A stretch of DNA of 64,000 nt, taken from positions 62,001 through 126,000 of the forward strand of contig NZ_NESI01000002.1 in NCBI RefSeq assembly GCF_002778325.1. Reading direction: 5' to 3'. The notes below the pieces were generated by a model. The model saw only the letters and a list, made by a program, of their open reading frames with translations. It was not told the origin of the DNA and ran no database searches. Below, piece after piece: positions 44,514 to 64,000 of this stretch. Every line of letters begins with the position of its first letter. Position 1 is the first letter of the stretch. A program made the position numbers and the translations under genes. Origin of the DNA: Limnohabitans sp. B9-3. Lineage in GTDB: Bacteria; Pseudomonadota; Gammaproteobacteria; Burkholderiales; Burkholderiaceae_C.

Positions 44514-44557
44514 TACCGAGCTAAGCGTCGCTTTTTTGCGAGGCATGCTGCGTATCG

Positions 44558-44679: not shown

Positions 44680-44684
44680 TTTCT

Positions 44685-45881: not shown

Positions 45882-45902
45882 CGCGTTTGAACGGATTTCG
45901 TC

Positions 45903-46916: not shown

Positions 46917-47013
46917 TCTTTTTTGCCAATCATTTTGGTGTGATCGGTGATTGAAGTTGTGTGTGGTGAGTTTCACACTCGCATCCAACGCAACACACTT
47001 TTCAGGAACACAA
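46917..47013. promoter_or_regulatory. Probable promoter region of the large catabolic operon
   Basis: A 97-base gap, the largest within the region after the AraC gene. It holds the inverted repeat GTGTG-N8-CACAC at 46961-46978 and an AGGAA ribosome site before 47014. No strong -35/-10 pair is evident, which would be consistent with an activator-dependent promoter. Confidence 0.4.
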
Positions 47014-48207
47014 ATGACCCGTATGCAAAGAGCTGTTCACGTCGTAGGTGTCGGCATGATTCCGTTCACCAAGCCTGGTGCTAGCGAGCCCTACACCGTC
47101 ATGGGGGCCCGCGCAGCCAAGTTGGCCCTTGACGATGCGGGTGTTGGTTATGAGCACGTTCAGCAGGCCTATGTGGGCTATGTGTACGGCGACTCCACCT
47201 CTGGTCAAGCGGCCATTTATGGCGTGGGCTTGAGCGGCATACCGGTCTTCAACGTCAACAACAACTGTTCCAGTGGCTCTAGCGCTTTGTTCTTGGCGCG
47301 GCAAGCGGTAGAGAGCGGCATGGTCGAATGTGCCATTGCCTTGGGCTTTGACCAAATGGTGCCGGGTGCCTTAAAGGGTGCGTATGACGACCGTCCATCG
47401 CCCATGCAACGCTTCGCGGATGTGATGAACACACACCAGGGTTACCAAGCCGACGTGCCGCGTGCTGCCCAGTTTTTTGGTGGTGCGGGTCGTGACTACA
47501 TGGGTCAATACGGCATTCGCCGCGACACCTTTGGCCGCATCTCCGTCAAGGCGCGTCAACACGCAGCGCGCAACCCCTTGGCTGTGTTTCGCCAAACCTT
47601 GACGCTCGATGAAGTCATGGCGTCGCCCAGTGTGTTTGACCCCTTGACCCGTTATCAGTGCTGCCCACCCACCTGTGGTGCGGCAGCGGCCATTGTGTGC
47701 TCGGCTGATTTTGCCAAGAAGCACAAGCTCGACATGCGGGTGATCATCGCAGCGCAAGCCATGACGACCGACACCCCTAGCACCTTCGAGACCAACGACA
47801 TGCGCCGCGTGGTGGGCTACGACATGACTGCTGCTGCTGCCAAGCAGGTGTATGAAGCCGCAGGCATTGGACCCGACGCGCTGGATGTGGTGGAACTGCA
47901 CGATTGCTTCACCGCCAACGAACTCATCACCTACGAAGCCTTGGGGCTCACACCTGAGGGGACGGCCGAAAAATTCATCTTGGAAGGTGACAACACCTAC
48001 GGTGGTCGTGTGGTCACCAACCCTTCTGGTGGCCTGCTGTCCAAAGGTCATCCTTTGGGGGCGACGGGCTTGGCGCAATGTGCCGAGTTGGTGTGGCAAC
48101 TGCGAGGTCAAGCTGATCAACGCCAAGTGGAATGCGCGCGACTGGCTTTGCAGCACAACCTAGGTTTAGGCGGCGCGTGTGTGGTGACTTTGTACCAAGC
48201 GGTTTGA
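47014..48207 (+). CDS. SCP-x-type thiolase / lipid-transfer family protein
   Basis: A 397-residue thiolase-superfamily protein of the sterol-carrier (SCP-2 thiolase) group. The nucleophilic Cys is in NNNCSSGSSALFL. HDCFTANELITYEALGL, SGGLLSKGHPLGATG and the second Cys in LGGACVV are all present, so a full thiolytic site is predicted. It would cleave a 3-oxoacyl-CoA, probably branched or bulky. It is the first gene of the operon. The frame is open from 46951, but AGGAA at a proper distance marks the ATG at 47014. Confidence 0.9.
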   Translation: MTRMQRAVHVVGVGMIPFTKPGASEPYTVMGARAAKLALDDAGVGYEHVQQAYVGYVYGDSTSGQAAIYGVGLSGIPVFNVNNNCSSGSSALFLARQAVESGMVECAIALGFDQMVPGALKGAYDDRPSPMQRFADVMNTHQGYQADVPRAAQFFGGAGRDYMGQYGIRRDTFGRISVKARQHAARNPLAVFRQTLTLDEVMASPSVFDPLTRYQCCPPTCGAAAAIVCSADFAKKHKLDMRVIIAAQAMTTDTPSTFETNDMRRVVGYDMTAAAAKQVYEAAGIGPDALDVVELHDCFTANELITYEALGLTPEGTAEKFILEGDNTYGGRVVTNPSGGLLSKGHPLGATGLAQCAELVWQLRGQADQRQVECARLALQHNLGLGGACVVTLYQAV

Positions 48208-48217
48208 AAGGGTATCC

Positions 48218-48661
48218 ATGATTGACAAAAAATACATCGGGCACACCATGCCTATTTTTGAGGTCTTGGTGGAAAAAGGTCGTTTGCGATTTTTCGCCAA
48301 GGCCACCGGCCAGACCGACCCGGTCTATACCGACGACGCCACAGCGCGTGCCGCTGGGCACCCAGCCTTGCCTGTGCCGCCCACATTTTTGTTTTGTTTG
48401 GAAATGGAGTCGCCTGACCCAGCCGCGATCCGCAACCTGTTGGGCATGGATTACCGCAAGCTGCTGCACGGCGAGCAGGGCTTTACCTACCACCGCATGG
48501 CCTATGCGGGTGATGTGCTGCGTTTTGAGCAGCGCATCGAAGACATCTACGACAAAAAAGGCGGTGCACTCGAATTTGTTGTGCGCAAAACCCGCGTGAC
48601 CAACCAACATGGTGAGCCTGTGGCCGAACTACGCACCGTGAGCGTTTTGCGCCATGGATAA
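48218..48661 (+). CDS. MaoC-like dehydratase, N-terminal-type subunit with altered active-site motif
   Basis: A 147-residue hotdog protein of the MaoC_dehydrat_N / FAS1-like group. At the hydratase-2 position where active enzymes read G-D-x-N-P-x-H it reads TGQTDPVYTD, so the Asp and His are not in their usual places. It is directly followed by a second hotdog gene with the full motif. The pair resembles ChsH1/ChsH2-type heteromeric enoyl-CoA hydratases, in which one subunit binds substrate and the other carries the active site. This is inference from motif and gene pairing. Confidence 0.85.
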   Translation: MIDKKYIGHTMPIFEVLVEKGRLRFFAKATGQTDPVYTDDATARAAGHPALPVPPTFLFCLEMESPDPAAIRNLLGMDYRKLLHGEQGFTYHRMAYAGDVLRFEQRIEDIYDKKGGALEFVVRKTRVTNQHGEPVAELRTVSVLRHG

Positions 48662-48671
48662 GGAAACTCAA

Positions 48672-49091
48672 ATGACCCTCCCTAGCTTTGACACCCTTCA
48701 AGTCGGCGACGCCATTCCTGTGCTGGCGTTGCCCCCTGTCTCGCGTCTCACGTTGGCGCTCTACTGCGGCGCTTCGGGCGACCACAACCCCATCCACGTC
48801 GACACCGACTTTGCGCACATCGCAGGCCTGCCCGACGTGATCGCGCACGGCATGTTGTCCATGGGCTGGCTGGCGCGCTTGCTCACCAACTGGGTGCCGC
48901 AAACAGCCATTCGCGATTACAGCGTGCGCTTTGCTGCCATGACTCAAGTGCACGAAAACATCACTTGCACTGGCGAAGTGACCGAAAAATTCGAGGTCGA
49001 TGGAGAGCGCCGCGTGCGCTTGTCGCTGACCACGGTCAATGCTGAAGGCCAGATCAAGCTGGCCGGCGACGCTGTGGTGGCGCTTGCCTGA
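48672..49091 (+). CDS. MaoC-like (R)-enoyl-CoA hydratase, catalytic-type subunit
   Basis: A 139-residue hotdog protein with the complete hydratase-2 motif, GDHNPIHVD, then IAGLPDVIAHGMLSMGWL. It would add water to a trans-2-enoyl-CoA. The frame is open from 48654, overlapping the preceding gene, but AGGAAA lies 7 bases before the ATG at 48672. It probably pairs with the upstream subunit. Confidence 0.88.
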   Translation: MTLPSFDTLQVGDAIPVLALPPVSRLTLALYCGASGDHNPIHVDTDFAHIAGLPDVIAHGMLSMGWLARLLTNWVPQTAIRDYSVRFAAMTQVHENITCTGEVTEKFEVDGERRVRLSLTTVNAEGQIKLAGDAVVALA

Positions 49092-49127
49092 ACCCCATTT
49101 CAAACATACATGTCAAAGGATTTATCC

Positions 49128-49955
49128 ATGACCCGCAAACTCGAAGGCCAAGTGGCCCTGGTCTCAGGCTCTGGTCGCGGCATTGGCCGCGAAATCGCGC
49201 TCAAGCTCGCCAGCGAAGGCGCACGCGTTGTCATCAACGACCTCGACCAAGCCCCGGCCGAGCAGACCGTGGCCGACATCGTCGCAAGCGGTGGCCAGGC
49301 CGTGGCCTGCATTGGTAGCGTGACAGACACCGACTTTGGCGAGCGTTTTGTCCAAACCGCGCTCGACACCTTTGGCGGCATCGACATCATCGTCAACAAC
49401 GCCGGTTACACCTGGGACAACGTGCTGCAAAAGATGAGCGACGAGCAGTGGGAAGCCATGCTGGCCGTGCACCTGACCGCGCCGTTTCGCATCTTGCGTG
49501 CCGCCTCGGGCTTCATCCGAGAAGCGGCCAAGCGCGAAGCCGAAGCGGGCACGCCCAAGCACCGCAAGGTGGTCAACATCTCGTCCACGTCGGGCGTGTA
49601 CGGCAACGCTGGCCAAGCCAATTACGCAGCGGCCAAGGCCGGCATCAACGGTTTGACCAAAGCCATGGCCAAAGAGTGGGGCCGCTACAAGGTCAACGTC
49701 AACAGCGTGGCCTTTGGCCTGATCATGACGCGCCTGACGCAACCCCTGACGGCAGGCGATGCCAGTGTGGAGATTCAGGGCCGCACCATCGCAGTCGGCG
49801 TGCAGCCGGATCGCCTGAAGGCCGCCGAGTCCACCATTCCGCTGGGCCGTGGCGGCACCCCCGAAGAAGCGGCAGGCGCCGTCTACATGTTCTGCATCCC
49901 CGAGTCCAACTACGTCAGCGGCCAAGTGTTGGTCTGCGGCGGCGGCCGTCCCTGA
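49128..49955 (+). CDS. SDR-family 3-oxoacyl/3-hydroxyacyl-CoA oxidoreductase
   Basis: A 275-residue classical SDR: SGSGRGIG (about 13-20), NDLDQ acidic end of strand 2 favouring NAD or a phosphate-free site, NNAGYTWDN, and catalytic Y and K in NYAAAKAG. It probably oxidises a 3-hydroxyacyl-CoA. AAAGGA lies 7 bases before the ATG at 49128; an earlier in-frame Met at 49110 is less likely. From here to about 52.4 kb leucine codons are mainly CTG/CTC, unlike the neighbours. Confidence 0.88.
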   Translation: MTRKLEGQVALVSGSGRGIGREIALKLASEGARVVINDLDQAPAEQTVADIVASGGQAVACIGSVTDTDFGERFVQTALDTFGGIDIIVNNAGYTWDNVLQKMSDEQWEAMLAVHLTAPFRILRAASGFIREAAKREAEAGTPKHRKVVNISSTSGVYGNAGQANYAAAKAGINGLTKAMAKEWGRYKVNVNSVAFGLIMTRLTQPLTAGDASVEIQGRTIAVGVQPDRLKAAESTIPLGRGGTPEEAAGAVYMFCIPESNYVSGQVLVCGGGRP

Positions 49956-49962
49956 AGCGCGT

Positions 49963-51114
49963 ATGGACAGCATCCTCACTTTCCCCCGCAGCGTGTTCCG
50001 TGATGACCATGAGATGCTGCGCACCACCGTGCGCCGCTTTTTAGAGCGGGAATGCAAACCCCGCCAAGCCCAGTGGGACAAAGACGGCAAGGTCGATCGT
50101 GAAACCTGGCTCAAGGCTGGGCGTGAAGGCCTGCTGTGCGCCACCATGGACCCTGAGTGGGGTGGGGGTGGGGGTGACTTTGGCCACGCGGCGGTGATCG
50201 TGGAAGAGATTGGCCGCTCTGGCGTGAGCGGCTTGGGCTTTGGTCTGCATTCCGATGTGGTGGCACCCTACATTGAGCGCCTTGGCACGCCCGCACAAAA
50301 AGCCCAGTGGTTGCCCCGATGCGCCACGGGTGAAGTCATCCTCGCCATTGCCATGAGCGAACCCGGCGCGGGCAGCGACCTCAAAGCCATCCGCACCACG
50401 GCGCGCCGCGAGGGCGATGAGTACGTCATTAACGGGGCCAAGACCTTCATCTCCAACGGCCTGAACTGCGACCTGGTCGTGGTGGTGGCCAAGACCGAGC
50501 CCGAGCTGGGTGCCAAGGGTGTGTCGCTGATCCTGGTGGAGGCCGACCGCGCCGGTTTTCGCAAAGGCCGCAAGCTCGACAAAATGGGCCAGGAAGCGGC
50601 CGACACCGCCGAGCTGTTTTTTGAAGACGTGCGCGTGCCCGTCACCAACATCTTGGGCGAAGAAAACAAGGGCTTTGCCTACCTGATGCAAGAACTGGCG
50701 CAAGAGCGTTTTGTGATCGCGCTGGGTGCCGCCGCCAAGATGGAAGCCATGTTTGACGAGACCGTGCGCTACACCAAGGAGCGCGTGGTCTTTGGCAAGC
50801 CGCTGTTTGATTTTCAGAACACCCGCTTCAAGCTGGCCGAAATCAAAGTCCGCACCACCGCCGTGCGCATGATGGTGGACCAATACTTGGGTGAGCATTT
50901 GCGACGCAAGCTCACCGTGCAAGAAGGTGCCATGGCCAAGCTGTTTGCCACCGAGGAGCTGGGCAAGGCACTCGACGAGTTGCTGCAGCTCTACGGCGGC
51001 TACGGCTACATGATGGAGTACCCCATCACCCGCGCCTTTGTGGACTCACGCGTGACCCGCATTTATGGTGGCACCAGCGAGGTCATGAAAGAGTTGATCT
51101 CGCGCAGTTTGTGA
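49963..51114 (+). CDS. Acyl-CoA dehydrogenase (LCAD/FadE-like)
   Basis: A 383-residue flavoprotein dehydrogenase: AMSEPGAGSDL, INGAKTFISNG, the FAD/substrate helix ERVVFGKPL, and the end RIYGGTSEVMKELI. The usual Glu of YEGT is Gly (YGGT), as in long-chain and isovaleryl types, where the base is a Glu in an earlier helix; FDETVRYTKER offers one. It forms the 2,3 double bond of an acyl-CoA. It starts seven bases after the SDR stop. The frame is open from 49849 only by overlapping that gene. Confidence 0.9.
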   Translation: MDSILTFPRSVFRDDHEMLRTTVRRFLERECKPRQAQWDKDGKVDRETWLKAGREGLLCATMDPEWGGGGGDFGHAAVIVEEIGRSGVSGLGFGLHSDVVAPYIERLGTPAQKAQWLPRCATGEVILAIAMSEPGAGSDLKAIRTTARREGDEYVINGAKTFISNGLNCDLVVVVAKTEPELGAKGVSLILVEADRAGFRKGRKLDKMGQEAADTAELFFEDVRVPVTNILGEENKGFAYLMQELAQERFVIALGAAAKMEAMFDETVRYTKERVVFGKPLFDFQNTRFKLAEIKVRTTAVRMMVDQYLGEHLRRKLTVQEGAMAKLFATEELGKALDELLQLYGGYGYMMEYPITRAFVDSRVTRIYGGTSEVMKELISRSL

Positions 51115-51159
51115 TCACCGTTTGTGACCCCCACACCGCACCCGCCTAAAGAGCCGCTC

Positions 51160-52875
51160 ATGTCCACATCGTCGCTGCCTTATTGGCCCAAAGGCGTTCC
51201 GCGCACGCTGAACCTGCCGCAGGTACCGCTCACGCATTACGTGCAGGTCGCGGCCGAGCGCTTTCCGAACAAGCCCGCCGTGATTTTTTGCGGCAGCACG
51301 CTGAGCTATGCGGCGCTGCATGCGCGCGTGGAGGCGCTGGCCGGTTACCTCACCCAGCGCCTGGGTGTGCAGCGCGGCGACCGGGTCTTGTTGATGAGCC
51401 AAAACTGCCCGCAATACGTGGCGGCCTACTACGGCATCATGCGCGCCGGGGCGGTGGTGGTGCCGGTCAACGCCATGTGCACGCAAAGCGAAATCCGCTA
51501 CTACCTGCAAGACAGCGGTGCCCGCGTGGCCATGGTGGCGCAAGAGTTGTTGCCGCAGGTCATGCCGCTGCTGCAGCCGGGCGATGCTGATGCCTTGCAA
51601 GCCGTGCTGGTGCATGCGTATTCAGAAGGCCTGCCTGCGCAGCCCGTCAGCGACGAAGTGCCTGAAGTTGTGTTGGCCCCGCGCCAGTGGCCCGATGCCC
51701 CGGGCCTGCATGGGCTCGAAGACGCCATTGCACAGGCCTTGCCCGCGCCTGCAGAGCACCCACACAGCGACGACCTGTGTGTGCTGCCCTACACCTCGGG
51801 CACCACCGGTCACCCCAAGGGCTGCATGCACACGCACGCCACGGTGCTGGCGTCCAACATGGCTGCGCAGGTCTGGCGCAGCATGCACATGGACTCGGTG
51901 TTTTTGGCTGTCGCGCCTTTGTTCCACATGCTGGGCATGCAGGGCGGTCTCAATGTTCCGATCACGCTGGGCGCCACCGTGGTCATGCTGCCACGCTGGC
52001 ATGCGGCTTCTGCGGCGCGCTTGATCGAGCAGCACCGCGTCACGACTTGGTCTGCACCTCCCGCTATGCTGATCGACTTCTTTGCCAACCCGGCCGCTGC
52101 ACAGCGCGACCTAAGCAGCTTGTCGGCTTTGGCAGGTGGCGGCGCGGCCATGCCGGAGACGGTGGCGAACTTGCTGCAAACGCGTTTTGGCATCGCCTAC
52201 AACGAGGCCTACGGCATGACCGAGACCGCGTCTTTTTTGTTGGGCAACCCACCGGCACGCGGCAAGCGCCAATGCCTGGGCGTCATCACGCCTGGCGTGG
52301 ACGCGCGCATTGTGGACCCTGAAACTCTGCGCGAGTTGCCCGTGGGCGAGGTGGGTGAATTGGTCACGCGTGGCGCGCAACTCATGCGCGGCTATTGGCA
52401 AAACGAGCAGGCCAACCAGTCCTCATTTTTTGAACTCGATGGCCAAACGTTTTTCCGCACAGGCGACTTAGCCAGTGTGGACGAAGAGGGTTACTTCTTC
52501 ATGCGCGACCGCCTCAAGCGCATGGTCAACGTCTCAGGCTTCAAGGTCTGGCCCGCCGAGGTGGAAAACACCTTGTACGAACACCCGGCCGTGCACGAGG
52601 CCTGCGTGATTGCTGTACCCGACACCAAGCGCGGCGAAAACGTGATGGCGTTACTGGTGCTTAAACCTGAATTCACAGACCAACTCACAGAGCAAGCCGT
52701 CATCGACTGGGGGCGTGAGCGCATGGCTGTTTATAAAGCCCCGCGCATCGTGCGTTTCGTCAGCAGTTTGCCCAAGTCGAGCACTGGAAAAATTTTGTGG
52801 CGCCAGTTGCAAGAGACTGAGCGTCAGGCCATCGCCACCGCAGCCGGTGAAACGTCAACCTCTGATCCTTTGTGA
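51160..52875 (+). CDS. Acyl-CoA ligase (AMP-forming), long-chain type
   Basis: A 571-residue ANL enzyme that activates a carboxylic acid to its CoA ester. Motifs: P-loop YTSGTTGHPKG, AYGMTETASF, FRTGDLASVDEEGYFF, the hinge DRLKRMVNVSGFKVWPAEVE, and the catalytic lysine near the C-terminus in KSSTGKILWR. It is longer than the two other ligases of the region. An in-frame GTG at 51124 is possible, but the ATG at 51160 gives a natural N-terminus. Confidence 0.9.
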   Translation: MSTSSLPYWPKGVPRTLNLPQVPLTHYVQVAAERFPNKPAVIFCGSTLSYAALHARVEALAGYLTQRLGVQRGDRVLLMSQNCPQYVAAYYGIMRAGAVVVPVNAMCTQSEIRYYLQDSGARVAMVAQELLPQVMPLLQPGDADALQAVLVHAYSEGLPAQPVSDEVPEVVLAPRQWPDAPGLHGLEDAIAQALPAPAEHPHSDDLCVLPYTSGTTGHPKGCMHTHATVLASNMAAQVWRSMHMDSVFLAVAPLFHMLGMQGGLNVPITLGATVVMLPRWHAASAARLIEQHRVTTWSAPPAMLIDFFANPAAAQRDLSSLSALAGGGAAMPETVANLLQTRFGIAYNEAYGMTETASFLLGNPPARGKRQCLGVITPGVDARIVDPETLRELPVGEVGELVTRGAQLMRGYWQNEQANQSSFFELDGQTFFRTGDLASVDEEGYFFMRDRLKRMVNVSGFKVWPAEVENTLYEHPAVHEACVIAVPDTKRGENVMALLVLKPEFTDQLTEQAVIDWGRERMAVYKAPRIVRFVSSLPKSSTGKILWRQLQETERQAIATAAGETSTSDPL

Positions 52876-52886
52876 AAGTCGCAGTC

Positions 52887-53681
52887 ATGACTGATTTCAA
52901 AACCATCCAATTCAAAGTCAGCAACCAGGTCGCCACGCTGACCTTGGACAACCCTAGCAAGCGCAATGCACTCGACCCCGCCATGCGTGTGGAGGTGTCG
53001 GACGTGGTGATGCAAATTCGTCGAGACCCGAGCATTCGCGCGTTGATCTTGACGGGGGCGAACGGCCATTTTTGTGCGGGGGGTGATTTGAAAAACATCG
53101 CCACCGTGGGTCTGGACAACCAAGGCTGGCGTCAACGTTTGCAAGATTTGCATGCGTGGCTGCAAGAGTTGCTCACGCTCGATCGACCCGTCATCGCTGC
53201 GGTCGATGGTGCGGCGGCGGGCGCAGGCTTTAGCTTGGCGATGGCCGCAGATTTTGTGCTGGCCACGCCGCGGGCGCGGTTTTGCATGTCGTTTTTGAAG
53301 GTGGGCTTGGTGCCCGACTGTGGGGCTTTTTACACCTTGCCGCGCATCGTGGGCGTGCAACGTGCCAAAGAACTGATGCTGTCCGCCCGTGACGTGGAAG
53401 GCCCCGAAGCCTTGAAACTGGGCTTGGTGATGGAGCTGCATGAACCTGACGCTTTGATGGCACGCGCCCAAGCCTTGGCCGATAGTTTTGTGCACGCTTC
53501 GCCCATGGCGGTCGCTTTGATCAAGCGCACGTTTGCAGGTTGGGGTGGCGATTTGTCGACCTCGCTAGAGAACGAAGCCAATGCCCAAGCTTTGGCCATG
53601 GGCAGCCAAGAACACAAGACCGCGGTGAACCGCTTTCTCAACAAAGAGCCGCTGCCGTTCCAGTGGCCCGTCAACGAATAA
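52887..53681 (+). CDS. Enoyl-CoA hydratase/isomerase (crotonase) family protein
   Basis: A 264-residue crotonase. Oxyanion-hole blocks HFCAGGDLKNIA and DGAAAGAGFSLAMAADF are present. The first catalytic Glu of classical hydratases is absent: the equivalent segment reads SFLKVGLVPDCGAFYTLPRIVG, with an Asp as in PaaG-like isomerases and hydratases. The likely reaction is isomerisation or hydration of a CoA ester. The frame is open from a GTG at 52872 that overlaps the ligase stop; both starts are possible. Confidence 0.88.
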   Translation: MTDFKTIQFKVSNQVATLTLDNPSKRNALDPAMRVEVSDVVMQIRRDPSIRALILTGANGHFCAGGDLKNIATVGLDNQGWRQRLQDLHAWLQELLTLDRPVIAAVDGAAAGAGFSLAMAADFVLATPRARFCMSFLKVGLVPDCGAFYTLPRIVGVQRAKELMLSARDVEGPEALKLGLVMELHEPDALMARAQALADSFVHASPMAVALIKRTFAGWGGDLSTSLENEANAQALAMGSQEHKTAVNRFLNKEPLPFQWPVNE

Positions 53682-53713
53682 ACAAATCACGTTATTTCAA
53701 AAAGGAGATGAAG

Positions 53714-54649: not shown

Positions 54650-54659
54650 GGAGATAACG

Positions 54660-55046
54660 ATGAGCGATAAAACCACAGGTGTCCTTGTGCAGCACCAAGC
54701 CGCATTGGCTGAAGGACGTTTTCTGATTCAAAAGTGCGACGGCTGCGGTCAACACATTTACTTTCCGCGTGAAATCTGCCCGCATTGCGGCAGCGATGCG
54801 GTGCAATTTGTCAGTCCCAGCGGACAAGGCACGGTCTACGCCGTGACCACCGTGCGCCGCAAGCCAGCCGATGGGGGTGACTACAACGTCAGCCTGATTG
54901 ACCTCGACGAAGGTCCGCGTTTGATGAGCCGCGTGGACAACGTGAAGCCCGATGACGTGAAGATTGGCCAGCGCGTGACCGCGCGTGTGGTGGTGGCCGA
55001 TGACAAAGGTGTGGTGGTGTTCGACGCCGTAGGAGGTGCAGCATGA
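54660..55046 (+). CDS. DUF35 zinc-ribbon/OB-fold protein, probable aldolase partner
   Basis: A 128-residue DUF35 protein. The rubredoxin-like zinc ribbon is CDGCGQHIYFPREICPHCG, followed by an OB fold (about 55-125: SGQGTVYAVTTVRR, DDVKIGQRV). Proteins of this type bind thiolase-superfamily partners. In steroid degradation a DUF35 domain of ChsH2 is needed to form the active Ltp2 aldolase. Its stop overlaps the start of the thiolase-like gene by 4 bases, matching that pairing. AAGGAG precedes the ATG at 54660. Confidence 0.92.
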   Translation: MSDKTTGVLVQHQAALAEGRFLIQKCDGCGQHIYFPREICPHCGSDAVQFVSPSGQGTVYAVTTVRRKPADGGDYNVSLIDLDEGPRLMSRVDNVKPDDVKIGQRVTARVVVADDKGVVVFDAVGGAA

Positions 55047-56221: not shown

Positions 56222-56261
56222 CGCATCTGTTTTTTAACGTATCTATTTATAAAGAAATCCC

Positions 56262-57428
56262 ATGATTCGTGATCCCCAAACCCTGAATGCGTTGCTCGAC
56301 ACGGTGAACCGATTTGTGCGAGAACGCCTCGTGCCTGCCGAAGCCTTGGTGGCTGAGACCGACGAAATTCCCGACGACATCGTGCAAGAGATGAAAGACA
56401 TGGGCCTGTTCGGTTTGACTGTGCCGGAGTCTTATGGCGGCTTAGAGCTGACCATGGAAGAGGAAGTCATGGTCATTTTGGCGATGGGCCAAACCTCGCC
56501 GTGCTTTCGCTCGCTGTTTGGGACGACCGTTGGCATTGGGTCGCAAGGCATTTTGTTCGATGGCACGCCCGAGCAAAAAGCCAAGTATTTGCCCAAACTC
56601 GCCACCGGTGAATTGATTGCTTCGTTCGCGTTGACCGAGCCTGACGCCGGTTCAGACGCAGCCTCGCTGCGCACCACGGCCATTCGTGGCACCGATGCCG
56701 AGGGCGACCATTACATCGTCAACGGGACCAAGCGCTACATCACCAACTCACCCCATGCCGGCATCTTTACCTTGATGGCGCGTACCAACCCTGCAGACAA
56801 AGGGGCAGGTGGTGTGTCGGCTTTCATCGTCGAAGCCAACACGCCGGGCATCACGATTGGCAAGGTCGATAAAAAGATGGGCCAGCGCGGGGCGCACACG
56901 GCCGACGTGATTTTTGAAAACTGTCGCGTGCCAGCCAGCCAACTCATTGGTAACAAGGAAGGCCAGGGCTTCAAAACCGCGATGAAAGTGTTGGAGAAGG
57001 GCCGTATCCATATTGCGGCCATTTGCGTCGGCGTGGCTGAGCGCATGCAACGCGATGCGCTGAACTACGCCATCGAGCGCAAACAATTTGGCCAACCGAT
57101 TGCCGAGTTTCAACTGGTGCAAGCCATGTTGGCAGACAGCCAAGCCGAAATCTATGCGGCACGTTGCATGGTGATTGATGCGGCGCGTCGACGCGATGAT
57201 GGTCAATCCGTCGCTACCGAAGCATCGTGCTGCAAGTTATTCGCGTCCGAGATGTGTGGCCGTGTGGCGGATCGTGCGTTGCAAATATTTGGCGGTGCGG
57301 GTTACTTGAGCGAGTACGGCATCGAGCGGTTCTACCGCGATGTGCGCTTGTTCCGTTTGTACGAAGGCACCAGCCAGATTCAACAAATTGTGATTGCGCG
57401 CAACTTGGTGCGCGAAGCCACACGCTGA
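56262..57428 (+). CDS. Acyl-CoA dehydrogenase (short/medium-chain type)
   Basis: A 388-residue dehydrogenase with FALTEPDAGSDAASL, VNGTKRYITN, ERKQFGQPI, and the catalytic Glu in RLYEGTSQIQ. It differs from the other acyl-CoA dehydrogenase of the cluster, which lacks this Glu, so the two probably act on different chain types or as separate steps. It starts 40 bases after the Ltp2-like gene. Confidence 0.92.
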   Translation: MIRDPQTLNALLDTVNRFVRERLVPAEALVAETDEIPDDIVQEMKDMGLFGLTVPESYGGLELTMEEEVMVILAMGQTSPCFRSLFGTTVGIGSQGILFDGTPEQKAKYLPKLATGELIASFALTEPDAGSDAASLRTTAIRGTDAEGDHYIVNGTKRYITNSPHAGIFTLMARTNPADKGAGGVSAFIVEANTPGITIGKVDKKMGQRGAHTADVIFENCRVPASQLIGNKEGQGFKTAMKVLEKGRIHIAAICVGVAERMQRDALNYAIERKQFGQPIAEFQLVQAMLADSQAEIYAARCMVIDAARRRDDGQSVATEASCCKLFASEMCGRVADRALQIFGGAGYLSEYGIERFYRDVRLFRLYEGTSQIQQIVIARNLVREATR

Positions 57429-57457
57429 AGTTCGTTCACTACAAAGAGGAGACACCT

Positions 57458-58432
57458 ATGAAACAAATCATTGCTCGCCGAGTCTTGATGGCCGCTGCCG
57501 CGTTGAGCGCTTTCGCGGCATCAGCGCCTGTATGGGCTCAAAACTTTCCGAGTCAACCTATCAAAGTGATCGTGCCCTACCCAGCCGGTGGTGCTACAGA
57601 CGCATTGGCGCGCATGATGGCGCAGAAGTTCGGCGAGGCATGGAACACGTCTGTGGTGATCGAAAACAAACCCGGTGCAGGTGGCACCATTGGCAACAAC
57701 ATGGTGGCCAAAGCTGCGCCTGATGGCCACACCATTTTGATGACGATCACCGCCATCATTCAGCAGCCCTCACTGATGAGCTTGCCGTATGACCCGCTCA
57801 AAGACTTTGCGCCCGTGGTCCAAATTGCGAAAAGCCCCAGCATGTTTGTGGTGCCCCCAAGTTCACCTGCCAACAACTTGAAAGACTTCATCGCCTTGGT
57901 CAAAGCCAATCCAGGCAAGTACAACTTCGGCACCTATGGCGCAGGCACTTCGTCACACATTCAAGGTTCTTTGTTAAATCTCCAGGGAGGCATAGACATG
58001 GTGCATGTGCCGTTCCAAGGTGCGGCACCGTTGGTGAACAACATGGTGGGTGGTCAATTGACTTCGGCATTCATTGACTCTGCCTCTGCGCGCGCGCATT
58101 TGAAATCATTCAAAGCTCTGGCTGTCACGGGGCCTCAGCGCATGCCTGCTTTGCCCGATGTGCCGACGTTCAAAGAGTTGGGCTTTCACTCTTACGAGCC
58201 CTTGGGATGGTTTGGCATGCTCTTGCCCGCTAATACGCCTGCGGCCATCGTGGCCAAGTATTCAGACGAGGCCAACCGTATCTTGCGCATGCCCGATGTG
58301 GTGGCGCGCATCGAAGGCTTTGGCTTGGCTGTGGGAGGGGGCAAACCCGACGAGTTTGCGCAAGTTTTGAAGTCGGATGCGCAGGTCTACGCCAACATCA
58401 TCAAAGAGGCGGGCATCAAGCTTAGCCAATGA
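57458..58432 (+). CDS. Bug/TctC-type periplasmic receptor
   Basis: A 324-residue receptor with a signal peptide (about 1-28, cleaved after VWA-Q). Bug signatures FPSQPIKVIVPYPAGGATDALAR and VVIENKPGAGGTIGNNMV are followed by the VPFQGAAPLVNNMVGGQ block. It would capture a carboxylic acid for import. AGAGGAG precedes the ATG at 57458; upstream in-frame sequence overlaps the dehydrogenase gene. Confidence 0.92.
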   Translation: MKQIIARRVLMAAAALSAFAASAPVWAQNFPSQPIKVIVPYPAGGATDALARMMAQKFGEAWNTSVVIENKPGAGGTIGNNMVAKAAPDGHTILMTITAIIQQPSLMSLPYDPLKDFAPVVQIAKSPSMFVVPPSSPANNLKDFIALVKANPGKYNFGTYGAGTSSHIQGSLLNLQGGIDMVHVPFQGAAPLVNNMVGGQLTSAFIDSASARAHLKSFKALAVTGPQRMPALPDVPTFKELGFHSYEPLGWFGMLLPANTPAAIVAKYSDEANRILRMPDVVARIEGFGLAVGGGKPDEFAQVLKSDAQVYANIIKEAGIKLSQ

Positions 58433-58499
58433 GCTTCGGGCGGTTAACGCCCGCCATTCACGTGTGCCTATATCAATCAATCATCAGGAGACAAAACAC

Positions 58500-59489
58500 A
58501 TGAGTTTTTTTAAATTTTTAGGAACGCGACGGTTGCTGCAATCTTCACGCGCTTGGACGGCGCTGTTGCTTCTTTCGCCACTTGCTCTGTTGGCACAAAC
58601 ACCGGGGCAGACGGTGCGCTTGGTGGTGGGCTATGCGGCAGGTGGGCCTGTCGATGCGGCTGCACGCTTGTTTGCACCCGCGCTGTCGCGTGAGCTCGGG
58701 CAACCTGTGGTGGTGGAAAACAGAGCGGGTGCTGGCGGTGCCATGGGCGGCGATGCTGTGGCCAAAGCGACACCGAACGGCTTGCTGTTGTTTTTTGCAG
58801 CCAGCCCAACCATGACGATCAGCCCACACGTTTTGAAGTCCATGCCGTTTGATCCTGCCAAAGACGTGACGCCCATAGCCCCGATCTTGAGCTATTCCAA
58901 TGTCTTGGTGGTCAACAAAGATCAACCCTTTAAAACGGTGCCCGAACTCATCAGCTATGCCAAAGCCAATCCCAACAAGTTGGCTTACGGTTCTGCAGGT
59001 ATGGGCGCATCTAACCATCTGAGTGGTGAATTGTTTGCATTGCGCACCGGTACCACCTTGACGCATGTGCCTTACAAAGGCAACGCGCCGGCCATGACCG
59101 ATGTGATTGGCGGGCAGATCAACATGATGTTTGACATCATTGGCAGCGCGCGTAACTACGTGGCTTCAGGGCGCGTGTTGGCCATGGCTGTCACCTCGCG
59201 TGAACGCAACGTGTCGATGCCCGATGTCCCCACCATGCGCGAAGCGGGCTTGGCCGATTACGAGGTGGGTGGCTGGTATGGCTTGTACGGCCCCGCAAAA
59301 TTGCCCGCTGACATGGTGCAACGTTTGAACGAAGCCACCCGCAAAGCCTTGGCGGGCGACGAATTGAAAACCAAATGGGCTGAGCAAGGCTATGACCTGT
59401 GGGTGGGCTCGCCCCAACTGTTGGCTGAGCGAGCTGCGCGTGAGTTGGCGCTGTGGGCCACGGTGACCAAAGGTATTCAGGTTCAGTGA
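58500..59489 (+). CDS. Bug/TctC-type periplasmic receptor
   Basis: A 329-residue receptor, signal peptide about 1-35 (LLLLSPLALLAQT). TVRLVVGYAAGGPVDAAARLFAP, VVVENRAGAGGAMGGDAV and VPYKGNAPAMTDVIGGQI are the Bug motifs. It is distinct in sequence from the upstream receptor, so it is not a recent tandem copy. AGGAG lies before the ATG at 58500. No transporter membrane subunit is in the window. Confidence 0.92.
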   Translation: MSFFKFLGTRRLLQSSRAWTALLLLSPLALLAQTPGQTVRLVVGYAAGGPVDAAARLFAPALSRELGQPVVVENRAGAGGAMGGDAVAKATPNGLLLFFAASPTMTISPHVLKSMPFDPAKDVTPIAPILSYSNVLVVNKDQPFKTVPELISYAKANPNKLAYGSAGMGASNHLSGELFALRTGTTLTHVPYKGNAPAMTDVIGGQINMMFDIIGSARNYVASGRVLAMAVTSRERNVSMPDVPTMREAGLADYEVGGWYGLYGPAKLPADMVQRLNEATRKALAGDELKTKWAEQGYDLWVGSPQLLAERAARELALWATVTKGIQVQ

Positions 59490-59494
59490 TTGAC

Positions 59495-61006
59495 ATGAAC
59501 TTTCAATATATTCATCAACTGTTTGATGCGCGCGTGGCGCAAGCGCCATCGCAAGTGTTTCTTTCCACACCAACAGCTGATTTCACGTTGGCAGAGTTGT
59601 CCGTTTTGGTCGACCGTTTGGTGCTGGAGTTGCAGTCTGACGGCGTGCGTGCAGGAGACCGCGTGTTGATCGTGTCCGAGAACTGTCCCGAGCATGTGGC
59701 TTTGATCTTGGCATGCAGCAGGGTTGGCGCTTGGTCTTGTGGTGTGAATGCCCGCATGTCACGCGGCGAGGTCAACTTGTTCGTGCAAAAGGCGGACCCG
59801 CGCGTGATGTATTTCACCAGCGAGGTGTCTTCAGCTGCGCGATCACATGCACAAGAGGCAGGTGCCAGTGGCAGTGTATTGACGGGTTTGCAACGCAGTG
59901 CTGTGCGCACGGAGGCGGTGGCCGAGGTCGGTGAGTTGGCACAACGCGTGGCAGCCATCATTTTCACGTCGGGCACAACGGGCACACCCAAGGGTGTGTT
60001 GGTGTCGCACCAAGGTTTGCTGCAGTTTGGCCGTGTGTCGACGGAGTCCCGTCAACTCACACAGGCGGACCGTTCGTATGCTTATTTGCCGATGACGCAC
60101 ATCTTTGGCTTGGGCACCGTGTTGATGGCTTCTTTGTATGCGCGTGCGGCTCTGGTGATGCGCAGCGCGTTTGATCCTGCCGATGTGTTCAAGGCCTTGG
60201 CTGACGGCGGTGTCACGCAGTTGCAAGGACCGCCCGCGATGTTCACGCGTTTGTTGGCTTGGTTGGATGAGCAAGGTATTGCGCATCCTGTTTGTCCTGC
60301 GTTGCGCTACGTCTACACCGGTGCAGCACCGTTGGATTTGAAGCTCAAGCGTGCGGTGGAGGCACGTTTCTCCAAGCCTTTGCACCATGGCTATGGCTTG
60401 TCTGAATACGCCGGCGCTTTGTGTTTGGGCGCCTTGAACGTGGCGCGGGACGATACATCGGCAGGCTATTTGGTCGACGGTGCGGGGCTGCGCATCGTCA
60501 ACGAGCAAGGTCAAGATGCAGCGACAGGCGAGCGCGGTGAGATTTGGATGCGTGGCGTTGGCTTGATGCCCGGTTACTTTCGCGATACCGCCGCAACGGC
60601 GCAAGTGATGCGTGAAGGCGGCTGGTACACCAGTGGTGACATGGGTTACTTGGACGATTCCGGCGCTTTGTTTGTGGTGGGGCGCTTGAAAGAAATGATC
60701 ATTCGCTCGGGCTTCAATGTCTACCCCGGCGAGGTGGAGTCAGTGCTCGCCCAATTCCCAGGTGTGCAGCGTGCGGCAGTCGTGGGGCGTGCCATATCTG
60801 GCGGAAATGAAGAAATCATGGCCTTCCTTGAAATGCAGCCCAACGCCAAACTCGACCGTGCGGCCTTGGATGCTTATGTGGCCGATCATTTGGCGCCTTA
60901 CAAACGGCCAGCACACATCGTGGTGAGCGATGTGTTCCCGATGACGCTGAGCGGCAAAGTGCTCAAGCGTGAGCTGTTGGCTTCTTTTGAAGCACAGCCT
61001 GACTAA
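59495..61006 (+). CDS. Acyl-CoA ligase (AMP-forming), class I ANL family
   Basis: A 503-residue ANL enzyme: P-loop FTSGTTGTPKG, GYGLSEYAGAL, GDMGYLDDSGALFVVGRLKEMIIRSGFNVYPGEVE, and the C-terminal lysine in LSGKVLKREL. It would form the CoA ester of an imported acid. It starts five bases after the receptor stop. The in-frame sequence before 59495 overlaps that gene. Confidence 0.9.
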   Translation: MNFQYIHQLFDARVAQAPSQVFLSTPTADFTLAELSVLVDRLVLELQSDGVRAGDRVLIVSENCPEHVALILACSRVGAWSCGVNARMSRGEVNLFVQKADPRVMYFTSEVSSAARSHAQEAGASGSVLTGLQRSAVRTEAVAEVGELAQRVAAIIFTSGTTGTPKGVLVSHQGLLQFGRVSTESRQLTQADRSYAYLPMTHIFGLGTVLMASLYARAALVMRSAFDPADVFKALADGGVTQLQGPPAMFTRLLAWLDEQGIAHPVCPALRYVYTGAAPLDLKLKRAVEARFSKPLHHGYGLSEYAGALCLGALNVARDDTSAGYLVDGAGLRIVNEQGQDAATGERGEIWMRGVGLMPGYFRDTAATAQVMREGGWYTSGDMGYLDDSGALFVVGRLKEMIIRSGFNVYPGEVESVLAQFPGVQRAAVVGRAISGGNEEIMAFLEMQPNAKLDRAALDAYVADHLAPYKRPAHIVVSDVFPMTLSGKVLKRELLASFEAQPD

Positions 61007-61016
61007 GGAACATGCT

Positions 61017-62555
61017 TTGTACTTGACCCAAGGTTTACATCGTGCTGTTCAACGGCACCCTGACACCATCGCCTTGACGCATGTAAGTGATGCTGGCGAA
61101 CGGCACTGGACGTTTGCCGAAGTCGTCGATGCGGTCGGGCGTCAAGCCGCTTATTTGCAAGCCCGTGGCATAGGCGCCAATGACCGCGTGGCATTGCTGT
61201 CGCCCAATTCCGATCAATTGATTCAAGCCATTCTGGCGTGTTGGTGGCTGGGCGCAGTGGCGTGTCCCATGAACACACGGTGGAGTGAACCGGAGCTGGA
61301 CTATGCGTTGAAAGACAGTGATGCCGCACTGCTGTTGCACGACGTCAGCATGCCAGCCCCTCAAGGATTTTCACCTTCTTTGAGTTTGCTGGATTTGGCG
61401 AACGCTTCGGCGTCCATGCCTGCCGTCGCTGACACACGGACCGGTGGATCAGCCTTGGCCTCGCTCCTCTACACCGGCGGCACCACAGGTCGATCAAAAG
61501 GGGTGATGTTGACGCACGCCAACTTCTGGTCCGCTTGTATGACGCGCGGTGCTGAGCTGAACAACCCGCCAGATGCCGTATCGCTGTTGGTGGCTCCCTT
61601 GTTCCATGTGGCTGGCTTGGGCCGCATGGTCGGTCAGATGGTTGTGGGTGGGCGTTGGTTGACGATGGCGCAATTCAGAACTCCCGCAGTGCTGTCCGCC
61701 ATTGCGCGTTTTGGCATCAACGACACCATCGTCGTGCCCAGCATGTTGCAAGCCTTGCTAGATGATGCGAACTTTGATGCAAGCAAGTTGCAGTGTTTGG
61801 ACCGCATTGCCTTTGGCGCTGCGCCCATGCCGCCTGACTTGCTCAACCGTGCCTTGGCCGCTTGGCCCAACGCTGAATTTTTCCAAGCCTATGGATTGAC
61901 GGAAACCGCCGGCGCCGTGTGCATCAACTTACCTGTCAACCATCGCGGGCAGGGAGAAGCGCGTACGCTGTTGAATTCAGTTGGCCGCGCTGGCTTGGGC
62001 GCTGAAATCAAGGTAATGAATGACGCGGGCGAAGATGCACCACGCGGTCAAGTGGGTGAGGTTTGGGTGCGCGGCCCCATGGTCATGCAAGGCTATTGGA
62101 AGCAGCCCGAAGCGACTGCCGCAGCCTTTGTTGACGGTTGGTTTCGGACCGGCGACTTGGGGCGCATGCGTGAAGATGGGTATGTGTTCATCGTGGATCG
62201 CCTCAAAGACATGATCATCACGGGTGGTGAAAACGTCTACTGTGCCGAGGTCGAGGCCGTGCTGCGCAACCACCCGGATGTGGCACAAGCCGCCGTGATC
62301 GGCGTGCCCGATGTGAAGTGGGGCGAGGCGGTGCATGCGGTCATTGTTTTGACCAACACGGCGAGCTTGTCGACCGATGACATGTCAGCCGCTTTGCACG
62401 CGGCGTGTCACCAACAACTGGCTGGTTACAAATGCCCACGCAGCTTTAGCTTCTTGACGGAACTGCCGATGTCGGCTGCCGGAAAAATTCTGAAAAATGT
62501 GCTGCGTGAACGTGAACGTGCACGTGCACGTGCACGTGCACGCGCACGCGCATGA
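61017..62555 (+). CDS. Acyl-CoA ligase (AMP-forming) with Arg-Ala repeat tail
   Basis: A 512-residue ANL enzyme: YTGGTTGRSKGVMLTH, YGLTETAGAV, FRTGDLGRMREDGYVFIVDRLKDMIITGGENVYCAEVE, and lysine in SAAGKILKN. No ATG lies in frame at the start: AAGGA at 61005-61009 is placed 7 bases before a TTG at 61017, which I take as the start. The protein ends in alternating Arg-Glu and Arg-Ala residues encoded by a hexamer repeat. It begins ten bases after the previous ligase. Confidence 0.88.
   Translation: MYLTQGLHRAVQRHPDTIALTHVSDAGERHWTFAEVVDAVGRQAAYLQARGIGANDRVALLSPNSDQLIQAILACWWLGAVACPMNTRWSEPELDYALKDSDAALLLHDVSMPAPQGFSPSLSLLDLANASASMPAVADTRTGGSALASLLYTGGTTGRSKGVMLTHANFWSACMTRGAELNNPPDAVSLLVAPLFHVAGLGRMVGQMVVGGRWLTMAQFRTPAVLSAIARFGINDTIVVPSMLQALLDDANFDASKLQCLDRIAFGAAPMPPDLLNRALAAWPNAEFFQAYGLTETAGAVCINLPVNHRGQGEARTLLNSVGRAGLGAEIKVMNDAGEDAPRGQVGEVWVRGPMVMQGYWKQPEATAAAFVDGWFRTGDLGRMREDGYVFIVDRLKDMIITGGENVYCAEVEAVLRNHPDVAQAAVIGVPDVKWGEAVHAVIVLTNTASLSTDDMSAALHAACHQQLAGYKCPRSFSFLTELPMSAAGKILKNVLRERERARARARARARA
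62505..62552 (+). repeat. Hexanucleotide tandem repeat at the 3' end of the ligase gene
   Basis: Eight six-base units: two CGTGAA, four CGTGCA, two CGCGCA, directly before the TGA stop. They encode Arg-Glu twice and Arg-Ala six times. Slippage by whole units would change only the length of a basic tail. Confidence 0.9.
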
Positions 62556-62591
62556 AGCTCAACTGGTCTTTCATTTCAAAAGGAAAAAACG

Positions 62592-63578
62592 ATGAAGTCA
62601 ACTCTCCTAAACCGTGTACGGCGTCATTCGTTACTGGTTGTGTGCGGCCTAGCTCTTTGTAGTGGTGGCCTCAGCGCGTTGGCGGCCGACCCTTTTCCTT
62701 CTAAACCCATTTCTTTGGTACTGCCATTTCCCCCAGGTGGCTCTGTCGATCCTGTGTTTCGATCTTTGGCTGAAGCCGCTTCGCGTGATTTAGGGCAGCC
62801 CGTGGTGTTGATGCACAAACCTGGCGCGGGCGGCATCATGGGGACGGCCTCTGTGGGCGCAATGAACGAGGCGGATGGCTATACCTTGGCGGTCATGCAT
62901 AACTCAGTCATCCGTGCGCCCTTGATTCAAAAAGTGAATTTCGATCCTTTGCGCGATTTCACTTACATCGCTGGTTTGTTTGGGTTGAGCACAGGGGTTT
63001 CGGTCGCCATGGATGCACCCTGGAAGAATGTCGGTGAGCTCTTGGTAGATGCCAAAAAACAGCCGGGTGTGCTGAGTTGGGGCAACGTGGGGGCGATCAG
63101 TATCAACCGAATTTATGCCGAACGACTCGCCAAATTGGCTGGCACCAGTTTCAACATGGTGCCATTCAAAGGTGGCTCAGAAGCCTTCACCACGCTCATT
63201 GGCCGGCATTTGGATGTGTATGGCGACCCAGGCTTTGGCGCTCAGGTGCAAGGCGGCAAAGTTCGCTTGCTGGCAACCTTCACGGCGGAACGCCTCAAGC
63301 GTTACCCCAACGTACCCACGGTCAAAGAGTTGGGCTATGACTTGGTCATTGAATCCCCCATGGGTTTGGTGACCCCTAAAAATTTAGATCCCAAGATCGC
63401 GGCGCGGTTGGCGAGTGCCTTCAAAAAAGCAGCGTCTGACCCCGCTTATTTGAATCAATTGGAGCAGTTTGACTTTCAAGCGAATTGGACGTCTGGTGAG
63501 GAGTACGCAGCCTATGCCCGTTTGCAATTTGAACGCGATGCCAAGATGTTGAAAGAAATTGGCTTTAAACCTGAGTGA
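62592..63578 (+). CDS. Bug/TctC-type periplasmic receptor
   Basis: A 328-residue receptor with a signal peptide (about 1-31, ending SALAA). FPSKPISLVLPFPPGGSVDPVFRSLAEAA and VVLMHKPGAGGIMGTASVG are Bug-type, with VPFKGGSEAFTTLIGRHLDV after them. The third receptor of this operon and the fourth in the window. AAAAGGAAAA precedes the ATG. Confidence 0.92.
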   Translation: MKSTLLNRVRRHSLLVVCGLALCSGGLSALAADPFPSKPISLVLPFPPGGSVDPVFRSLAEAASRDLGQPVVLMHKPGAGGIMGTASVGAMNEADGYTLAVMHNSVIRAPLIQKVNFDPLRDFTYIAGLFGLSTGVSVAMDAPWKNVGELLVDAKKQPGVLSWGNVGAISINRIYAERLAKLAGTSFNMVPFKGGSEAFTTLIGRHLDVYGDPGFGAQVQGGKVRLLATFTAERLKRYPNVPTVKELGYDLVIESPMGLVTPKNLDPKIAARLASAFKKAASDPAYLNQLEQFDFQANWTSGEEYAAYARLQFERDAKMLKEIGFKPE

Positions 63579-63583
63579 GCTTT

Positions 63584-64000
63584 ATGACAACTTTGAACTT
63601 TGATTTTTCTGGCAAACATGTGTTTGTCGCCGGCGGCTCCAGCGGCATTAACTTTGGCATTGCGCAGGCGTTTGCGAAAGCCGGTGCACGCATTTCATTG
63701 ATCAGCCGCTCGGCCGAGAAGGTGGATGCAGCGGTGGCGCAACTCGCGTCTACCGGCGCGCAAGCGTGGGGCGCCTCCGCAGATGTTCGACAGCCCGCAG
63801 CCTTAGAGTCTGCATTTGCACAAGCCGCAGAAAAATTTGGACCGATTGATGTGCTGATTTCTGGCGCTGCGGGTAATTTCTTAGCCAGCGTGCTGGATAT
63901 GTCGCCCAACGCTTTCAAGACGGTGATCGACATTGATTTGTTGGGGAGCTTTCATGTTGTGCGCTTGGCGCATGCCTACTTGCAAAAACCGGGTGCCTGT
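63584..64000 (+). CDS. SDR, 2,4-dienoyl-CoA reductase-like (cut by window edge)
   Basis: The first 139 codons of an SDR that runs off the right edge. FDFSGKHVFVAGGSSGINFGIAQAFAKAG is the coenzyme site, and the ISGAAGNFLASV segment resembles the GAAGNF motif of peroxisomal-type 2,4-dienoyl-CoA reductases, where most SDRs read NNAG. The catalytic Tyr and Lys lie outside the window. It starts five bases after the receptor stop and continues the operon. Confidence 0.85.
   Translation, partial: MTTLNFDFSGKHVFVAGGSSGINFGIAQAFAKAGARISLISRSAEKVDAAVAQLASTGAQAWGASADVRQPAALESAFAQAAEKFGPIDVLISGAAGNFLASVLDMSPNAFKTVIDIDLLGSFHVVRLAHAYLQKPGAC

Follow-up and report, generated by a model that had tools for sequence, protein, structure and literature searches.

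Which carboxylic acids are degraded by the long run of coenzyme A (CoA)-dependent catabolic genes at the right end of the window analysed here? The window is a stretch of 64,000 nucleotides of Limnohabitans sp. B9-3 (assembly GCF_002778325.1, contig NZ_NESI01000002.1, positions 62,001 to 126,000), taken from a 3.40 Mb genome, and the reading was continued beyond its right edge; all coordinates are those of the window. We suggest that this operon (47014-64396), with two further genes directly upstream, serves the catabolism of methyl-branched carboxylic acids, probably of isoprenoid or terpenoid origin, a reading in which our confidence is about even. The genes fall into a thiolytic set (module A: racemase, ACAD1, split MaoC hydratase, SDR1 or SDR2 and SCP2-thiolase) and an aldolytic set (module B: ACAD2 and a DUF35-aldolase pair), and isoprenoid and terpenoid acids are proposed because they are a natural class that needs both, with 2-methyl branches, 3-methyl branches and double bonds. 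The enzyme set also supports the initial annotation in regarding the genes as a CoA-dependent operon for a branched or cyclic side-chain acid. The features are as follows.

44557-44580, plus strand: intrinsic-terminator-like hairpin (10 pairs, T-rich tail; the preceding gene ends at 44513, the next starts at 44721)
44721-45881, plus strand: alpha-methylacyl-CoA racemase-type protein of CoA-transferase family III (PF02515; PDB matches; catalytic triad)
45903-46916, plus strand: AraC-type regulator (Arabinose_bd PF12625 and HTH_18)
47014-48207, plus strand: SCP2-type thiolase (PRK08256 over cut-off; 6hsj, SCP2-thiolase type-1, E 8.6e-139)
48218-48661, plus strand: MaoC-type subunit, degenerate partner half of a split hydratase (PF13452, PF22622; motif without the catalytic His)
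48654-49091, plus strand: MaoC-type subunit, catalytic half (PF01575; GDHNPIH, Asp43, His48)
49128-49955, plus strand: SDR1, putative FabG-like 3-hydroxyacyl-CoA dehydrogenase (profile matches)
49963-51114, plus strand: ACAD1, LCAD-type acyl-CoA dehydrogenase (PDB matches; Glu248, Gly369)
51160-52875, plus strand: ACS1, AMP-forming acyl-CoA ligase of the PRK08314 subfamily (profile matches)
52887-53681, plus strand: crotonase-fold protein, isomerase-like (profile match; Phe136, Asp144, Glu162)
53714-54649, plus strand: SDR2, MFE-2/17beta-HSD4-like (3R)-hydroxyacyl-CoA dehydrogenase (best PDB matches 2et6, 1gz6)
54660-55046, plus strand: DUF35 zinc-ribbon/OB protein of the ChsH2 C-terminal type, the aldolase partner (PF01796, PF12172)
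55043-56221, plus strand: thiolase-fold retro-aldolase of a YDAF and HPGMYG subfamily (PRK06158 over cut-off)
56262-57428, plus strand: ACAD2, acyl-CoA dehydrogenase with MCAD-type Glu368 (profile and PDB matches)
57458-58432, plus strand: TctC1, periplasmic carboxylate receptor (PF03401)
58500-59489, plus strand: TctC2, periplasmic carboxylate receptor (PF03401)
59486-61006, plus strand: ACS2, AMP-forming acyl-CoA ligase (profile matches)
60987-62555, plus strand: ACS3, AMP-forming acyl-CoA ligase (profile matches; start uncertain)
62592-63578, plus strand: TctC3, periplasmic carboxylate receptor (PF03401)
63584-64396, plus strand: SDR3, 2,4-dienoyl-CoA-reductase-like (63584-64000 inside the window; PRK07576 over cut-off)
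64393-66159, convergent with the operon: FAD-oxidoreductase gene, abutting the end of SDR3

The operon from 47014 holds 17 plus-strand genes in the order listed, as read from open reading frames and profile matches, and it ends with the SDR3 stop at 64396, 396 bases outside the window. Its widest intergenic gap is 67 bases with the starts chosen for TctC2 (58500, where AGGAG precedes the ATG) and for ACS1 (51160, with a weak ribosome site). The plus-strand terminator-like sites within 47014-64000 are all intragenic and none lies between genes. On both strands of 44400-64000 there are 17 terminator-like sites compared with 27.0 on average after shuffling, while promoter-like sites number 4 compared with 5.7, so the scan does not single out promoters. 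The gene arrangement suggests a single transcription unit. The initial annotation had described sixteen plus-strand genes from 47014, with gaps of at most 67 bases and no internal terminator, running off the window; the run, its gene inventory, the gap and the lack of intergenic terminators all stand, and the count becomes 17 once the end beyond 64 kb is read. Its left boundary, however, was too short, as it missed the genes at 44721-45881 and 45903-46916, which belong upstream of the thiolase. The terminator-like hairpin at 44557-44580 closes the neighbouring protocatechuate 4,5-cleavage operon and forms the left boundary of the branched-acid unit.

The first of these genes is the chief supplement to the initial annotation, because a racemase of the AMACR/MCR type in the unit indicates 2-methylacyl-CoA intermediates. 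Among PDB entries AMACR/MCR score best (199 bits), compared with 169.5 bits for the best CoA-transferase, a succinate-hydroxymethylglutarate CoA-transferase; in NCBIfam only CoA-transferase models are matched, all far under cut-off. Residues His131, Asp160 and Glu245 align with His126, Asp156 and Glu241 of MCR, which we take to be the catalytic residues of the racemase. All 18 operon homologues in the loci examined (at least 50% identity) have the full triad; none of 33 other family-III matches of the same loci (at least 250 aligned residues) does, and 30 of these have Tyr in place of His. By sequence, the gene product is predicted to be an alpha-methylacyl-CoA racemase. Of the 23 genomes whose thiolase is at least 78% identical, 17 had their upstream DNA fetched. 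In 13 of these 17, racemase and AraC homologues both lie upstream of the thiolase, adjoining it in three and separated from it by as much as about 4 kb or by other genes in ten. The pair is missing in the other four, one of which has AraC alone; an eighteenth region fetched was without the thiolase. The loci of three of the six thiolase genomes without fetched upstream DNA also display the order racemase-AraC-thiolase.

The racemase also travels with module A, because paralogous cassettes pair the two without the aldolase. In three relatives a second thiolase, 63-65% identical, heads a cassette of the type AraC-SCP2T-MaoN-MaoC-SDR1-LCAD-type ACAD; the aldolase is absent from all three regions fetched and a racemase-like protein is present in two. 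The thiolase of the operon itself has Cys85, His296-Asp-Cys298, His346 and Cys389, with these motifs in 28 of 28 sequences, and thus both catalytic Cys and the HDCF and GHPxG motifs of an SCP2-thiolase. ACAD1 scores 400 bits with 2pg0 and 370 bits with the LCAD 8w0t, and 261 bits with the next structure; all 31 homologues of at least 50% identity have Glu248 at the LCAD position and Gly369 at the MCAD position. In the LCAD type the catalytic Glu presumably sits on an earlier helix, with Gly at the position of MCAD Glu376. The catalytic MaoC half keeps its Asp and His in 34 of 34 sequences. SDR1 passed no NCBIfam cut-off among the 25 best matches listed. We suggest that in module A the racemase equilibrates the epimers of a 2-methylacyl-CoA, ACAD1 yields the enoyl-CoA, the split MaoC hydratase adds water to it, SDR1 or SDR2, the latter MFE-2-like, oxidises the 3-hydroxyl, and the SCP2-thiolase would then cut off propionyl-CoA at the 2-methyl branch.

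A beta-branch would stop this sequence, because the 3-hydroxyl would be tertiary and could not be oxidised, and module B may be the way past it. ACAD2, whose MCAD-type Glu368 is kept in 52 of 52 homologues, and a hydratase would make the 3-hydroxyacyl-CoA, which the DUF35-aldolase pair would split in a retro-aldol cleavage, Tyr288 serving as base and His338 probably as acid. The aldolase matches 4u4e (E 4e-107) and also 9myr and 6ok1 (TcLtp2) in the PDB. Two relatives of the aldolase have been tested, Ltp2 and Sal, and both are retro-aldolases (PMC12329534); 9myr is probably CtSal, judging from its YDCY motif, which fits the motif given in that paper. With an adjacent DUF35 protein, the base Tyr kept and GGSS at the site of the nucleophilic Cys, the protein has the features of a DUF35-dependent thiolase-fold aldolase and is probably one. 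The earlier distinction between a real thiolase at 47014 and a thiolase-like candidate aldolase thus agrees with the residues of both proteins.

A search of the genome collection with the aldolase gave at least 578 relatives, of which the best 80 were kept, so that the sample is biased to close kin and not random. Tyr288, Ala290 and His338 have Tyr, Ala and His counterparts in all 80 of these named orthologues. His338 aligns with the acid Tyr344 of TcLtp2, where CtSal has Gln. The signature of Ltp2 steroid aldolases (YDHF with its Tyr base, and a second catalytic Tyr) is replaced by YDAF and His338 in 80 of 80, and that of Sal bile-acid aldolases (YDCY, with catalytic Tyr and Cys) is broken by Ala at the Cys position, again in 80 of 80. 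A second sample of 42 aldolase matches in 61 genomes provided loci for 30, including the window's own. Nineteen of the other 29 are at least 54% identical, with YDAF in 18, YDSF in one and HP in all; the motif varies among the ten matches below 46%. In a tree of 48 rows, all 32 YDAF rows form one clade (100/98) with TcLtp2 and CtSal outside, although the placement of several outer rows, these two included, is unsure owing to long branches.

These residues bear directly on a steroid origin, in which the genes would be an equivalent of the igr operon for sterol or bile-acid side-chain degradation (ChsE1E2, ChsH1H2, Ltp2) with a racemase added. The classes are the same, namely racemase, branched-acid dehydrogenase, split MaoC hydratase and DUF35 with a thiolase-fold aldolase, and the igr and Sal-Shy systems likewise combine a two-subunit MaoC hydratase, a DUF35 partner and a thiolase-fold aldolase (PMC12502768, PMC12329534). 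However, the DUF35 (54660-55046) and MaoC (48654-49091) genes are here unfused and apart, and ACAD1 and ACAD2 stand five genes apart with a catalytic Glu each, unlike igr (ChsE sequences were not compared). The aldolase has YDAF and His instead of YDHF and Tyr or YDCY and Gln, and therefore neither catalytic pair, and it lies outside the branches of TcLtp2 and CtSal. The HsaA monooxygenase, the sole ring gene searched, did not pass the cut-off in the genome (20.4 and 18.8 bits compared with 450). We consider a steroid origin highly improbable, and bile acids, which the initial annotation had held equally open, are less likely on the grounds of HsaA and the aldolase pairs.

The main rival reading is a pathway for alicyclic or naphthenic acids, since module B would use the same chemistry in cleaving a 1-hydroxycycloalkyl-acetyl-CoA. 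Cyclohexylacetate and other ring-acetic acids would be activated and then dehydrogenated and hydrated to such a CoA ester, whose tertiary beta-hydroxyl suits retro-aldol cleavage; the DUF35-aldolase pair would release acetyl-CoA together with a cyclic ketone, which is the reaction of EC 4.1.3.35. This EC number appears in a 2007 survey of orphan enzymes in the category 'difficult' (PMC1940265), and a Cupriavidus metallidurans strain is among the cyclohexylacetate degraders (PMC4547698); C. metallidurans CH34 encodes an aldolase homologue (64%) on a replicon of 2.58 Mb. However, no direct link was seen between those Cupriavidus genes and growth, the racemase and the SCP2-thiolase would not be required, and the operon is without a ketone-handling gene. 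We therefore regard alicyclic acids as unlikely, if worth keeping in mind. The naphthenic acid pathways of Cupriavidus CR3 (PMC4547698) and Rhodococcus (PMC4591350) are predicted only, and we did not use them as support.

The proximity of the protocatechuate 4,5-cleavage operon, in which LigK, LigA and LigB were identified, had suggested an aromatic acid. Here LigB and the thiolase are 3.5 kb apart. Of 27 distinct genomes, 21 have a LigB of at least 77% identity and 23 a thiolase of at least 78%; 17 have both. None of these 17 carries the two on one contig, even though ten of them have a thiolase contig longer than 100 kb. Such a LigB is missing from six of the 23 thiolase genomes, and the 17 thiolase-upstream regions contain no LigA or LigB matches. 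The linkage is incidental, because LigB and the thiolase share no contig in those 17 genomes and neither LigA nor LigB lies upstream of the thiolase in the regions fetched; the link drawn by the initial annotation does not survive these counts and the 10-bp stem of the hairpin between the operons, and the phenylpropanoid reading from proximity was dropped after this co-location test. An aromatic acid with a branched side chain, a phenylpropanoid or 3-arylbutyrate feeding protocatechuate, could still draw on the conversion of 3-(4-sulfophenyl)butyrate into 4-sulfoacetophenone by Comamonas testosteroni KF-1, a chemistry possible for module B (PMC3746432). However, the profile matches reveal no ring oxygenase among the operon genes, and together with the separation of the two operons this makes such a substrate decidedly unlikely.

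The gene order in relatives, which the initial annotation had proposed to compare, shows the run to be no mere product of chance. Homologues were located by tblastn with identity thresholds, and 54 of the 80 named loci had wide flanks, i.e. 8.5 kb or more upstream of the aldolase and 6 kb or more downstream of it. The thiolase, ACAD1 and ACS1 accompany the aldolase in 25 of the 54, and 21 of these 25 add SDR2 and ACAD2, giving six genes in one 21-kb locus in several Comamonadaceae genera and in Alcanivorax limicola. Among the carriers are Limnohabitans, Polaromonas, Curvibacter, Rhodoferax, Simplicispira, Variovorax, Ramlibacter, Methylibium, Noviherbaspirillum and A. limicola. The distribution is patchy inside the genus of the window, with an aldolase homologue of at least 70% in only two of 36 same-genus genomes, many of them incomplete. 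The tail genes ACS3, TctC3 and SDR3 are tied to the locus, because in two Variovorax genomes their homologues (67-81% identity) sit between AraC and the thiolase. No additional gene family beside the cluster reached more than 8 of 34 loci, so none was added. The aldolase also has matches in 171 plasmid records; the five regions opened have varied neighbours, one being unannotated, so the aldolase alone does not name a substrate.

Several observations were made beside these counts. A catabolic cluster flanked by IS1071 lies on plasmid pBPS33-1 of Hydrogenophaga sp. BPS33 (196771-225928); its genes encode an aldolase homologue (68%), a second OB protein, a second thiolase, a CoA transferase and 3-oxoacid CoA-transferase subunits. 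Contigs of metagenome-assembled genomes titled Akkermansia muciniphila and Hymenobacter are probably mis-binned; they contain aldolase homologues, 83% and 79% identical, that are typical of Burkholderiales, and the former bears much of the cluster. In eight relatives' loci a MaoC-like protein of about 293 aa, named by eye, lies downstream of ACS2, followed in several loci by a dehydrogenase and a CoA-transferase in which Tyr replaces the His of the racemase; some loci also have a PrpD-like protein after it. This is possibly an extra module that is absent from the window. To the right of the operon, at 64393-70315, two ketosteroid-dehydrogenase-like FAD oxidoreductases flank a shikimate-dehydrogenase-like gene. 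These oxidoreductases passed generic FAD models and no ketosteroid model over cut-off, and the genes perhaps belong to quinate/shikimate metabolism or to aromatisation of a cyclohexane ring.

For the branched-acid pathway, the remaining genes would provide entry and the handling of double bonds. TctC1-3 would help to import the acid and ACS1-3 would form its CoA ester. The nearest solved structures to TctC1 are Bug proteins and a terephthalate-binding protein, and the three receptors may share the two TctA partners whose genes lie elsewhere in the genome; ACS1 had no match in the PDB at E 1e-80. SDR3 and the crotonase may deal with pre-existing double bonds. The best PDB match of SDR3 is the peroxisomal 2,4-dienoyl-CoA reductase 4fc6 (E 1.7e-54), PRK07576 being a generic SDR subfamily model. 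In the crotonase, Phe136 stands at what we take to be the position of Glu144 in hydratases, with Asp and Glu kept as presumably in isomerases; Phe136, Asp144 and Glu162 lie in motifs found in 28 of 28 orthologues. Propionyl-CoA has a likely outlet about 28 kb upstream of the thiolase, where methylmalonyl-CoA mutase and MeaB, both over cut-off, lie in 11916-18753 beside a carboxyltransferase (under the cut-off of its nearest model) and biotin carboxylase genes.

Several points weigh against the isoprenoid-acid reading. In 29 of the 54 wide-flank loci the aldolase has no module A beside it, so that module B occurs both with and without it, and the two modules therefore need not share one substrate molecule. 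In the racemase-like proteins of the paralogous cassettes His and Glu are in register and Asp is one alignment column off. The NCBIfam matches of the MaoC pair are the HadA/HadB subunits of fatty acid synthesis, under cut-off, so the label 'hydratase 2' depends on the motif and Pfam. The isomerase role of the crotonase is the weakest assignment and leans on a motif, and that of His338 is read from an alignment. TctC receptors usually bind small polar carboxylates and are ill-suited to long greasy acids. The operon contains no alcohol or aldehyde dehydrogenase, Baeyer-Villiger monooxygenase or esterase that could take up the expected aldehyde or ketone product of module B; elsewhere the contig has two FMO-like genes. 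The citrate/methylcitrate synthase model TIGR01800 was not reached over cut-off, which leaves propionyl-CoA to the mutase route, and the carboxylase subunits of that route are named by neighbourhood. Finally, the substrate, the transcript and the enzyme activities are all deduced from DNA.

The first of these points would also fit several unrelated pathways placed head to tail, with no common substrate and no single functional unit. In all three paralogue regions, a paralogue of module A occurs together with weak matches (28-33%) to ABC-transporter-like genes, named by eye, that lie past the edge of the window. However, 21 of the 54 loci keep the thiolase, ACAD1, ACS1, SDR2, the aldolase and ACAD2 within 21 kb, and the two Variovorax genomes hold ACS3, TctC3 and SDR3 homologues elsewhere in the same locus. 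It is very unlikely, in our view, that the run is such a chance assembly, and we retain one pathway for methyl-branched acids.

Peroxisomal branched-chain beta-oxidation uses AMACR, MFE-2, SCPx and the peroxisomal 2,4-dienoyl-CoA reductase. Its racemase, (3R)-hydroxyacyl-CoA dehydrogenase, MaoC-type hydratase, SCP2-thiolase and dienoyl-CoA reductase all have counterparts in the operon, which differs in being bacterial, in having an LCAD-type dehydrogenase instead of the oxidase, in the hydratase split over two genes, and in the added aldolase and carboxylate receptors. Actinobacterial degradation of rubber and isoprenoids with Mcr similarly has a racemase, dehydrogenase, dienoyl-CoA reductase, hydratase and thiolase in its proposed route, although in a genome described there the dienoyl-CoA reductase is of the old-yellow-enzyme type (PMC8538451) and here it is of the SDR type inside the operon. 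In KF-1, chain shortening to the methyl ketone would need the same kind of cleavage, but the Baeyer-Villiger monooxygenase and esterase of that strain have no counterpart in the operon, and the genes of its upper pathway were unpublished in that paper, so no gene comparison was possible (PMC3746432). A link to pristane was set aside, since the ABO gene numbers given in a proteomics paper on Alcanivorax borkumensis could not be matched to the cluster and 'racemase' does not occur there (PMC6850023). As to the Atu/Liu route, no biotin-dependent geranyl-CoA carboxylase or lyase is present in the operon; a genome-wide search was not made.

All the enzyme families are known, and neither their combination nor the YDAF-His aldolase signature was found described in the literature searched, which left out most subscription papers; to that extent the operon is undescribed, as first stated. 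Lakes and soils are rich in methyl-branched isoprenoid and terpenoid acids. To our knowledge, aerobic bacterial operons for such acids are poorly defined beyond the carboxylase (Atu/Liu) and steroid routes. The operon names testable genes in common freshwater bacteria, presents a peroxisome-like enzyme set within one bacterial gene run, and highlights a thiolase-fold aldolase subfamily with conserved residues unlike both tested types, Ltp2 and Sal. A bolder proposal, possible though doubtful, is that thiolysis and retro-aldol cleavage alternate past 2-methyl and 3-methyl branches as a complete and self-contained pathway for isoprenoid acids (e.g. derived from phytol or terpenoids) in lake and soil Burkholderiales and Alcanivorax, the YDAF aldolases being a third (Tyr-His) class of thiolase-fold lyases that act on tertiary 3-hydroxyacyl-CoAs. 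If this is true, the YDAF aldolases would provide lyases such as EC 4.1.3.35 with the sequence that they lack.

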